Positions 48,276 to 51,468 of a DNA stretch of 64,000 bases are shown here, piece after piece. Origin of the DNA: Burkholderia metallica (GTDB lineage: Bacteria > Pseudomonadota > Gammaproteobacteria > Burkholderiales > Burkholderiaceae); assembly GCF_902832845.1 (NCBI RefSeq), contig NZ_CADFDB010000001.1, forward strand, positions 682,001 to 746,000, written 5' to 3'. The translations under genes and the position numbers were made by a program. A model generated the notes under the pieces. The model made no database searches. It was not told where the DNA came from and saw nothing but the letters and a program-made list of their open reading frames with translations. The stretch's first letter is position 1. Each line of letters begins with the position of its first letter.

Positions 48276-48451
48276 GGTCTGCTCACGCTAACGTGCGTTG
48301 CGGGCCGCATTACTGCGTCGCGCGTCGCTTGTTTGGCTCGGCCGAACGGCGCTCCTTGCTTCTTGCTCGCGCCCGAAGGAAGTCCCCTTGTGGGACAGCC
48401 GGCAACGCTCGTTCGCATGCCCGCAATTGGCGTGAACGGCCCCCCAGGGCG

Positions 48452-48481
48452 TTGACGCGGCCGGTATCGTCCGCCTACCAT
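48452..48481 (+). promoter_or_regulatory. Predicted sigma-70 promoter of the efflux leader
   Basis: TTGACG (48452-48457) and TACCAT (48476-48481) are separated by 18 bases. Transcription would begin near 48488, about 50 bases before the 16-codon leader ORF. Confidence 0.5.
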
Positions 48482-48538
48482 CGTCCGGTATCGTTCAGCA
48501 CGGCACGCAGTCAACCCGGCAATCAGGAGCCATCCGGC

Positions 48539-48589
48539 ATGCACGCAGCTCACTTCATCGTAGTATTCCCGAGGCGCAGGGTCCGGTAG
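48539..48589 (+). CDS. Putative 16-residue leader peptide of an efflux gene
   Basis: The ORF encodes MHAAHFIVVFPRRRVR. AGGAG at 48525-48529 lies nine bases before the ATG, so it should be translated. It is not part of any larger gene. Its last codons (12-16 plus the stop) form the left arm of a long hairpin that shares bases with a following terminator. The sequence ends in a run of arginines; RRR and RVR fit the Arg/Lys-x-Arg/Lys pattern at which macrolides are known to stall ribosomes, and FPRRR could also stall without a drug. Similarity to any named leader peptide is not known to me. If real, translation of it would control read-through into the MFS gene at 48685. Confidence 0.5.
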   Translation: MHAAHFIVVFPRRRVR

Positions 48590-48615
48590 CGACACTACGC
48601 CGGCACCCATGCGCC
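48573..48615 (+). promoter_or_regulatory. Putative antiterminator hairpin in the efflux leader
   Basis: Left arm 48573-48589 pairs with 48595-48615 in four blocks: GGCGCA/TGCGCC, GGGT/ACCC, CCGG/CCGG and TAG/CTA, 17 bp in all, with one- and two-base bulges on the right side and a CGACA loop. The right arm covers 48613-48615, the first three bases of the terminator stem, so the two structures compete. Confidence 0.5.
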
Positions 48616-48641
48616 CCCGACTCGATCGGGGGCTTTTTTTT
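48613..48641 (+). terminator. Intrinsic terminator ahead of the Bcr/CflA gene
   Basis: GCCCCCGA (48613-48620) pairs perfectly with TCGGGGGC (48626-48633) and is followed by eight T. It lies between the leader ORF and the MFS start. It could act as attenuator of the MFS gene, as plain terminator of the degP-like gene 340 bases upstream, or as both. Confidence 0.85.
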
Positions 48642-48684
48642 GCATTGCGCACGGCCGCGCGGCACGTGCGCGGAGGCCATCCGC

Positions 48685-49896
48685 TTGCCATCGAACCTGC
48701 CGATCGTGTCCGAACGGGCGTCGCCGCGATTCGCGACGCTGATCCTGCTGTGCGCGTGCTCGGTGCTGCCGCTGAGCCTGTTCCTGCCGTCGCTGCCGGC
48801 GATCGCGCGCGACCTGCGCGCCGACTATGCGCTCGTCGCGCTGTCGCTCGGCGGCTATGCGGCGATGGCCGCGTCGCTCGAATTCGTGACGGGGCCGCTG
48901 TCGGACCGGTTCGGGCGGCGGCCGGTCGTGCTGGCGAGCGTCGGCGTGTTCGCGCTCGGCTCGCTCGGCTGCGCGATGGCGACCGACGTTCGCGTGTTTC
49001 TCGCCTGCCGGCTGATGCAGGCGGCGATCACGTCGGTCTATCCGGTGTCGATGGCGACGATCCGGGATACCGGCGGCGGTGCGCGCGCGGCGAGCCGGAT
49101 CGGCTATGCGGCGACCGCCGCCGCATTCGCGCCGATGCTCGGTCCGACGCTCGGCGGCGCGCTCGACCAGACGACGGGCTGGCGGGCGATCTTCTGGCTG
49201 CTCGGCATGACGGGCATCGCGCTGTTCGTCTGGTGTGCGTTCGATCTCGTCGAAACCCATGCGAACCGGTCGTCGAGCGTCGGGCAGCAGCTTCGCGCGT
49301 ATCCGGCGCTGCTGCGTGCGCGCCGCTTCTGGGCCTATGCTCTCTGCATGGCGTTTTCCACCGGCTCGTTCTATGCGTTCCTGGCCGGCGCGCCGCTCGC
49401 CGCGCAAACGGTGTTCGGCATCGCGCCGGCGGAAATCGGTTTCTACATGGGCACCATCACAGCCGGCTTCGTGTGCGGCAGCTTCCTGAGCGCGCGTTAC
49501 GCGCGCCGCTACGCGCCGGCGACGACGATCCTGTGCGGGCGTGTCGTCGCGTGCGCGGGTCCGTCGACCGGCCTCGCGCTGTTGTTCGGCGGCGCGACGC
49601 ACGCGATCGCGTGGTTCGGGCCGTGCGTGCTGGTCGGCATCGGCAACGGGCTGAGCAATCCCGCCGCGCATGCCGGCGCGGTGTCGGTGCGCCCGGAACT
49701 GGCCGGCAGCGCGTCGGGGCTGGCCGGCGCGATGACGATCGCCGGGGGCGCCGCGCTTTCGTCGCTGACCGGCGCGGTGCTGACGGCCGGCAACGCGGGC
49801 TATGCGCCGCTGGCGATGATGCTGGGATCGGCCGCGATTGCGTTGGCGGCGGCCGTCTGCGTGCGGACGTTAGACGCGCGGGACGCCGGGCGGTGA
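48685..49896 (+). CDS. Bcr/CflA-type MFS drug efflux transporter
   Basis: 403 aa, about 12 membrane segments. It has the motif-A loop TGPLSDRFGRRPVVLASV and the Bcr/CflA pattern LFLPSLPAIARDL in the first helix and SVYPVSMATIRD later. Relatives export chloramphenicol, bicyclomycin, sulfonamides and peptides. TTG 48685 is taken as start because CGGAGG lies eight bases upstream; an earlier TTG at 48640 falls in the terminator T-run. Expression probably depends on read-through of the leader terminator. Confidence 0.85.
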   Translation: MPSNLPIVSERASPRFATLILLCACSVLPLSLFLPSLPAIARDLRADYALVALSLGGYAAMAASLEFVTGPLSDRFGRRPVVLASVGVFALGSLGCAMATDVRVFLACRLMQAAITSVYPVSMATIRDTGGGARAASRIGYAATAAAFAPMLGPTLGGALDQTTGWRAIFWLLGMTGIALFVWCAFDLVETHANRSSSVGQQLRAYPALLRARRFWAYALCMAFSTGSFYAFLAGAPLAAQTVFGIAPAEIGFYMGTITAGFVCGSFLSARYARRYAPATTILCGRVVACAGPSTGLALLFGGATHAIAWFGPCVLVGIGNGLSNPAAHAGAVSVRPELAGSASGLAGAMTIAGGAALSSLTGAVLTAGNAGYAPLAMMLGSAAIALAAAVCVRTLDARDAGR

Positions 49897-50644: not shown

Positions 50645-51343
50645 TTACGGCGTCGCGCCCACGACGAATTCGAACGTTGCGACACCGTCGACGCCGCCCG
50701 TCACGCGGTCGCCCGGTTGCAGCGCGCCGACACCCGCCGGCGTGCCGGTGAAGATCAGGTCGCCGGCCTTCAGCTCGACCGAGCGCGACACGGACGCGAT
50801 CACGTCGGGCACGGCCCAGATCATGTCGGCCAGGTCGCCTTGCTGGCGCGGCTCGCCGTTGACCGCGAGCCAGATGCGGCCCGTTGCCGGGTGACCGGTG
50901 GCCGCGGCCGGGCGCAGCGCGGTCACGGGGCCCGATGCGTCGAAGCCTTTCGCCCAGTCCCACGGCCGGCTCAGTTTCTTCGCTTCGGCCTGCAGGTCGC
51001 GGCGCGTGAGGTCGACGCCGACGCCGTAGCCCCACACGTGCGACAGCGCGTCGGCCGGATCGATCGACCGGCCGTCCTTGCCGATCGCGACGACCAGCTC
51101 GATTTCATGGTGGAGATCGTTCGTCAGCGGCGGATAGGGGACGGTCCCGCGGGCCGGGACGATCGCGTCGGCCGGCTTCATGAAGAAGAACGGCGGTTCG
51201 CGGTCGGGATCGGCGCCCATTTCGCGCGCGTGGTCGGCGTAGTTGCGGCCGACGCAGAAGACGCGGTGCAGCGGAAAGCGCGCGGACGACTGGTCGACTT
51301 CGACGGAAGGACGCTCGGCAGCGTCGATGACATAAGCGGACAT
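50645..51343 (-). CDS. Fumarylacetoacetate hydrolase family protein (fumarylpyruvate-hydrolase-like)
   Basis: 232 aa, the short form of the FAH fold. FCVGRNYADHAREMG, FFFMKPADAIV, LHHEIELVVAIG (metal-binding Glu pair) and the C-terminal KAGDLIFTGTPAGVG are all present. Short members cleave fumarylpyruvate, acylpyruvates or decarboxylate oxaloacetate. ATG 51343 follows CGAGGCC. It lies downstream of an AraC-type regulator and a short-chain dehydrogenase on the same strand, which suggests a small catabolic unit for an aromatic or ring compound. Confidence 0.88.
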   Translation of the reverse strand: MSAYVIDAAERPSVEVDQSSARFPLHRVFCVGRNYADHAREMGADPDREPPFFFMKPADAIVPARGTVPYPPLTNDLHHEIELVVAIGKDGRSIDPADALSHVWGYGVGVDLTRRDLQAEAKKLSRPWDWAKGFDASGPVTALRPAAATGHPATGRIWLAVNGEPRQQGDLADMIWAVPDVIASVSRSVELKAGDLIFTGTPAGVGALQPGDRVTGGVDGVATFEFVVGATP

Positions 51344-51468
51344 CGGATGGCCTCGTTCGGTGAAAGGACGATTGCCGCGCCCATGCAGCGCACGGGCCGG
51401 CATGCGTGCAACGATACCCGACGCCCGCGCGGCCGGATGCGACGCAACTGCGTTTTACCGGGACAAAA

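Follow-up and report, generated by a model that had tools for sequence, protein, structure and literature searches.

The 64,000-nt window of Burkholderia metallica analysed here (the whole stretch of DNA under study) holds, between a degP-like gene and a gene for a Bcr/CflA-like MFS transporter, a compact unit of promoter, short open reading frame (ORF), hairpin and terminator, which raises the question of whether this unit is a leader-peptide attenuator, which of the two genes it serves, and to which signal it responds. A sequence-only reading had proposed an attenuator of the transporter gene, switched either by a translation-inhibiting drug or by shortage of a charged tRNA. Judged from the comparisons presented below, the unit appears to be a genuine leader-peptide attenuator, conserved, most likely responsive to valine, and located 5' of the Bcr/CflA-like gene. 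Its parts, their conservation, the bias toward Val and GTA codons, covariation in a wider family, kinship to leaders of ilvI, and linkage to MFS genes in two bacterial classes were directly observed.

The promoter-like element, the Shine-Dalgarno (SD) sequence, and the 16-codon ORF of the sequence-only reading are all present at their positions in the window (Table 1), as are the terminator with its eight T residues, the three bases that it has in common with the preceding hairpin, and a second ribosome binding site followed by the start codon of the MFS gene. The hairpin, originally described as 17 bp, is likewise present and stable, but folds with 15 pairs and two bulges (-25.5 kcal/mol, z -4.4; none of 200 shuffled sequences equally stable); its left arm is encoded by the final leader codons. 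The terminator stem (48613-48633) forms 8 pairs and is followed by the T run up to 48641 (-17.0 kcal/mol, z -4.1; again 0/200), with 0.5 such sites (sd 1.0) expected by chance alone in the terminator scan. The stability of the entire 213-nt leader is unremarkable (z -1.3, 21 of 200 shuffles as good). Between positions 48300 and 48900, the promoter, located 177 nt beyond the stop codon of the degP-like gene (48275), is the sole promoter-like site (shuffles: mean 0.0, sd 0.2). In a search of the source genome for second copies, the only further match with E <0.01 (25.8 bits) turned out to be a tRNA gene pair with a terminator, and 18 further matches were weaker; viral contigs gave zero matches to the leader pattern and plasmid records two, both on large Burkholderia replicons. 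A hairpin similar to the one that directly precedes the MFS ribosome binding site, with one pair changed, was seen by eye at a locus devoid of the leader (L046).

Table 1. Elements of the leader unit and its downstream gene in the Burkholderia metallica window
Feature	Position	Strand	Remarks
Sigma-70-like promoter, TTGACG-N18-TACCAT	48452..48481	+	six-base block with TTGAC invariant in 39 aligned rows
SD sequence of the leader ORF, AGGAG	48525..48529	+	
Leader ORF, 16 codons plus TAG	48539..48589	+	predicted peptide MHAAHFIVVFPRRRVR
Proposed stall site, regulatory codons ATC GTA GTA (Ile-Val-Val)	48557..48565	+	Val at -9/-8 conserved
Bulged hairpin, proposed antiterminator	48573..48615	+	left arm 48573-48586, right arm 48600-48615
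Intrinsic terminator, 8 bp plus T8	48613..48641	+	48613-48615 common to the hairpin
7-bp hairpin, GCGCACG/CGTGCGC	48647..48671	+	directly 5' of the MFS ribosome binding site; found by eye
Bcr/CflA-like MFS transporter gene	48685..49896	+	TTG start; SD sequence GGAGG at 48672-48676

The case for a leader unit rests mainly on its conservation: the genus alignment comprises 39 rows from 37 genomes, and each of the 37 leaders can be read, at the level of predicted translation, as an open frame, with one end position common to all. The underlying sample consisted of 65 Burkholderia genomes, 44 of which were matched by a 331-nt query, some merely via short pieces of the MFS gene; the 37 genomes with the unit include two in which it looks decayed (G051, G033). 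The six-base block holding TTGAC, the stop codon, and much of the hairpin barely vary among the 39 rows, and the first half of the ORF is variable in sequence and changes its length in whole codons, giving rise to peptides such as MKAACFIVVVHRRRVR, MRAALVIVVGSRRMVR, and MKTNPNRIARPVARRRKVR. Across the genus, the unit thus displays what is expected of an attenuator, namely a predicted short ORF with start codon, SD sequence, stop codon, and in-frame conservation, and an intrinsic terminator that precedes the structural gene.

The encoded transporter scored 198 bits against the Bcr/CflA model TIGR00710 (cut-off 200.9), its top-scoring family, and 133.2 bits against the CmlA/FloR model (cut-off 450); the named proteins closest to it are drug exporters. 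Its TTG start is kept in most aligned genus rows and is not recognisable in L040-L043. An orthologue with at least 69% identity was found in 39 of the 65 genomes (truncated in G032; a 58% match in G017 was excluded), and 35 of these 39 also carry the leader unit. The four exceptions are G012 and G060, where the unit is gone, G023, which retains the promoter but has lost the ORF, and G032, with a deletion running from the promoter into the MFS gene. Conversely, the unit occurs without an MFS match in G051, where it is decayed, and in G054, where the MFS gene has suffered an internal deletion; in G047 the two reside on separate contigs. Inserts behind the leader T run separate unit and gene by ~1.3 kb in G061 (L044), where the unit is intact, and by ~9 kb in G033 (L039), where hairpin and terminator are altered. 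Three genomes (L040-L042) contain unit plus MFS gene and no degP match within the 6.5-7 kb fetched. Outside the genus, a covariance model built from Burkholderia leaders only (R1; E <= 0.01) matched 91 of 398 genomes of the family, of which 36 belong to the genus and 54 are weak (<=31 bits), and the sole strong extra-genus match (81 bits, Paraburkholderia fungorum) again sits before an MFS orthologue. On the basis of this linkage, the leader unit is assigned to the MFS gene and not to degP.

Relatives of the unit occur in Alphaproteobacteria. A pattern scan of species genomes gave, among the matches listed, 80 loci, mostly from Rhodobacteraceae and other Alphaproteobacteria, in which the letters of the pattern itself are conserved because the scan selected for them, whereas SD sequence, start codon, Val/Ile/Leu run, terminator, and T run lay outside the pattern. 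Among these listed loci, the unit is found 22-124 nt upstream of ilvI (acetolactate synthase) in 71 of 80, and before an MFS gene in five (L132, L166, L170, L175, and L183), the remaining four being too near a contig end; at L113, an ilvH-sized frame follows ilvI. Model R1 scored the pattern-selected alphaproteobacterial leaders at 35-61 bits, and none of the four ilvI leaders searched against Rfam reached a gathering score. The ilvI leaders of Rhodobacteraceae resemble the Burkholderia unit in the end of the ORF, the hairpin, the terminator, the usual 3-nt overlap, and the codon positions of the Val/Ile run; they differ in being Leu-rich (16% versus 2%), in their mostly WRMGR ending, and in having ilvI downstream. 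By homology in sequence and structure, the Burkholderia leader is therefore kin of the alphaproteobacterial ilvI leader family, although in Burkholderia the place of ilvI is taken by the MFS gene.

To become independent of the pattern, a second model (R2), comprising 59 Burkholderia and alphaproteobacterial leaders, was run on 385 alphaproteobacterial genomes (E <= 1e-4). Matches were obtained in 18 genomes, 4 of them before ilvI and 12 before MFS genes whose products are 45-56% identical to that of the window; the other two (L263 and L264; L301 and L302; G561 and G478) were weaker, with 32.7 and 29 bits. Seen from the transporter side, 18 alphaproteobacterial genomes encode an MFS protein of at least 45% identity, and 12 of these have an R2 match upstream, plus one with a leader recognised by eye (L266); in the other five, neither model nor eye detected a leader, and none was seen by eye at seven less similar MFS matches. 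The variant at L266 encodes MRMMQVSVVVGRRMGKAA, and by eye its hairpin and terminator do not overlap; the terminator there contains CCTTCC, complementary to GGAAGG in the ORF. Besides the MFS gene, no gene family is shared by more than two of the 11 alphaproteobacterial loci compared, and so leader and MFS gene appear to travel together; a Pfam scan of ten genes adjoining the MFS gene revealed no ilv or leu gene. The gene upstream at L132 is no protease, and its counterpart at L295 encodes DAHP synthase. Genes of the FAA hydrolase family are convergent to the MFS gene both in the window (50645-51403) and at alphaproteobacterial locus L298 (9424-10263), with 37% identity. The link to the MFS gene proposed in the sequence-only reading is borne out insofar as the unit stays with the MFS gene in three genomes lacking a degP match and precedes MFS homologues in Alphaproteobacteria.

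Codon content points to a candidate signal. Counted from the stop codon, Val occupies position -9 in 35 and position -8 in 36 of the 37 genus leaders. Valine-rich leaders of the family include MAELVVIVGKWRMGR, MRAALVIVVGSRRMVR, and MKAACFIVVVHRRRVR, each followed by a stop. In ilvI leaders, Val is found at -10 in 65 and at -8 in 61 of 78 (two rows seemingly misparsed), and among the 12 alphaproteobacterial and Paraburkholderia MFS leaders, each of the positions -9 and -8 holds Val in nine. Residues before the hairpin amount to 28% Val, 11% Ile, and 2% Leu in the genus and to 28%, 11%, and 16%, respectively, in the 75 of 78 ilvI leaders that could be parsed. This holds for the ORF frame: Val falls to 0-2% in the other frames of both groups (1% each in the genus), and in genus leaders Val, Ile, and Leu together make up 41% in frame and 9 and 14% out of frame, the figures for ilvI leaders being 55% in frame and 15 and 2% out of frame. 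Of the 105 Val codons that precede the hairpin in the 37 genus leaders, 70 are GTA, whereas the 26 Val codons of the window MFS gene include none. In the single Paraburkholderia leader, Ile exceeds Val. A Val-rich run just 5' of the hairpin is retained in the whole leader family, providing the run of regulatory codons for one amino acid that characterises attenuators. The in-frame Val/Ile bias, the use of GTA, and the drop of Leu from 16 to 2% together are what would be expected of a leader that senses valine and, in part, isoleucine. The earlier idea of charged-tRNA shortage as the trigger gains from the family-wide persistence of this run and from the position of the relatives before ilvI, as far as a predicted response is concerned.

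Attenuation presupposes that hairpin and terminator compete. Among 36 parsed genus leaders, the two overlap by 3 nt in 29, by 4 nt in one, by 2 nt in three, by 1 nt in one, and by 0 nt in two; three bases are also common to both in 61 of 71 parsed ilvI leaders, and L249, L252, and L254 have lost the first basal pair. At equilibrium, the base of the terminator forms with a median probability of 0.86 when the left hairpin arm is free and of 1.00 when it is masked (36 of 37 genus leaders). This effect is modest, and the switch, if real, would therefore have to be kinetic, depending on the order of folding during transcription, or involve a further component. The genus alignment confirmed a conserved ORF, but the compensatory changes that were to be looked for in both hairpins were not seen within Burkholderia alone. 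They emerged in the wider family: across 52 sequences, 8 pairs of the two hairpins, with 45 cells, are changed on both sides, versus 3.5 pairs and 11.1 cells in shuffles (0/500 as high) and at most 3 pairs and 7 cells in slid controls. The alignment behind these counts had been fitted to the structural model; a single pair contributes 28 of the 45 cells, and 38 of the 52 rows fail to form one of the modelled pairs. Three of the eight terminator pairs are among those changed on both sides.

Taken together, we consider it likely that the unit, placed before a Bcr/CflA-like gene, is an attenuator of the classical type, with charged tRNA-Val (and in part tRNA-Ile) as its signal and read-through under valine shortage. 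Transcription would begin at the unit's own promoter, and Val-tRNA would be read at the GTA codons, with a contribution of Ile in most Burkholderia. With ample Val-tRNA, the ribosome is predicted to reach the stop codon inside the hairpin and to cover the left arm, such that the terminator folds and transcription ends at ~150 nt. Under scarcity of charged tRNA-Val, it would instead pause on the Val codons just 5' of the hairpin, which could then form and take three basal bases from the 5' arm of the terminator, allowing polymerase to continue into the MFS gene. Based on the footprint sizes of ribosomes, the front edge would be near position 48572, immediately before the hairpin, with the first GTA codon in the A site. 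From these sequence features we infer that the ribosome stalls, that antitermination follows, and that valine shortage induces the gene, in line with the logic originally predicted, according to which a ribosome at the stop codon covers the left arm and frees the terminator while an earlier hold-up leaves the hairpin free. On this reading, the MFS protein would serve as a transporter under valine shortage, importing a valine-related compound or exporting an inhibitor of valine synthesis or charging, and not as a pump induced by drugs in general. By analogy, the attenuator would work like the ilvBN system of the alphaproteobacterium Caulobacter crescentus, but before a transporter gene. According to the available text of a paper citing Tarleton et al. 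1994, the Caulobacter ilvBN/ilvIH leader combines tandem Ile and Val codons with a Rho-independent terminator and is read through when charging of Ile-tRNA and Val-tRNA is low (PMC4117421). Set beside it by this description, our unit has the same adjacent Ile/Val codons in a leader ORF and a terminator of the same type; unlike in the window, the gene controlled in Caulobacter encodes acetolactate synthase.

An unlikely alternative is that a drug such as a macrolide or chloramphenicol stalls the leader ribosome and thereby switches on efflux, as at erm, cmlA, or PA5471.1/armZ. The downstream gene does resemble drug exporters, and the cmlA leader encodes a peptide before a chloramphenicol-inducible MFS exporter, there with drug-triggered translation attenuation. 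We also counted for drug sensing the FIVV stretch of the leader, which we take to resemble the arrest sequences of ErmCL and ErmAL1, and the fact that a general slowdown of translation could likewise free the hairpin. The RRR and RVR endings noted earlier as possible stall motifs conform to a +x+ ending. The window and a total of 33 of the 37 genus leaders have this ending; it is missing in the other four, in 10 of the 12 other MFS leaders, and in nearly all ilvI leaders, and it falls inside the hairpin arm. Among the 37 genus leaders, residue -3 is R (30), K (three), M (three), or G (one); ilvI leaders nearly always have M there (76 of 78), and R occurs in just 2 of the 12 other MFS leaders. 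An antibiotic-stall sensor is not supported by this pattern. What all groups have in common is instead the presence of Val codons, frequently GTA, as is typical of leaders that sense tRNA charging, and 71 of the 80 family loci among the matches listed precede ilvI. For PA5471.1-armZ-mexXY of Pseudomonas aeruginosa, ribosome-targeting drugs have been proposed to control efflux through a leader; this system, as described in the text available, shares with our unit a leader peptide, proposed transcription attenuation, and a link to efflux, but differs in having antibiotics as the signal and in acting via an anti-repressor (PMC12057347). The balance suggests that the pump would respond to valine shortage and not directly to antibiotics.

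We assign a very low probability to the unit being a stand-alone small RNA (or an sRNA plus peptide) that acts in trans and merely happens to lie upstream of the MFS gene. Its own promoter, its strong terminator, a length of ~150 nt, and its high sequence conservation would suit an sRNA, as would the inserts that part it from the MFS gene in G033 and G061; yet it accompanies MFS genes in two classes amid different neighbours, is decayed in G051 where the MFS gene is gone, and shows changes in hairpin and terminator in G033, though G061 is intact. The 153-nt B. cenocepacia sRNA ncS37, as listed in the accessible part of PMC5688073, is close in length, but its folding energy of -79.0 compares with -50.8 to -64.2 in nine leaders, and it was rejected as a candidate. 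Also rejected was anti-hemB (Rfam RF02837), with 21.7 bits versus a gathering threshold of 49.5 and a match mainly on the terminator. That we are looking at nothing but the terminator of the degP-like gene and a chance ORF, the reading that the sequence-only interpretation had held in reserve, is hardly conceivable: the short distance to the degP-like stop speaks for it, but the unit has a conserved promoter of its own, and the three genomes without a degP match as well as L132, along with the other alphaproteobacterial MFS loci, refute it.

In the literature, covered mainly by title and thinly for subscription papers, no title was found that announces this leader or a Bcr/CflA gene controlled by valine attenuation, and a survey of premature terminators mentions Burkholderia, in its available text, once, for a mobile element (PMC2965389). 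Where the pair came from was approached with a maximum-likelihood tree built from 44 MFS proteins, of which 19 are from the genus, one is from Paraburkholderia, and 24 are alphaproteobacterial; the tree is midpoint-rooted, with 11 inner branches open and two long branches flagged. The 20 Burkholderia and Paraburkholderia rows form a group (100/99) that joins one alphaproteobacterial row (99/97) and is nested inside further alphaproteobacterial rows, and leader-bearing rows cluster (7 label changes versus 13.4 in shuffles, 0/500). This topology suggests that the leader-MFS pair probably came from Alphaproteobacteria, and it would fit a single joining of leader and MFS gene, followed by transfer and several losses.

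A broader scenario, which we favour by a small measure, is that an attenuator of the kind found before ilvI joined an MFS gene in Alphaproteobacteria, that the module passed to Burkholderia, and that it shed its Leu codons to become a valine switch. The MFS protein might then be a dedicated transporter for valine starvation, taking up valine or its precursors, or pumping out natural inhibitors of valine synthesis or charging. These results point to an RNA leader family without a match at gathering score in Rfam (4 loci searched), and to a leader-peptide attenuator that travels with a transporter gene between bacterial classes. Bcr/CflA-like genes are usually annotated as drug efflux genes on the basis of homology. 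If the proposed sensing is true, a conserved valine-charge switch in two classes would be a direct and testable hint to the natural role of one Bcr/CflA-like subfamily.
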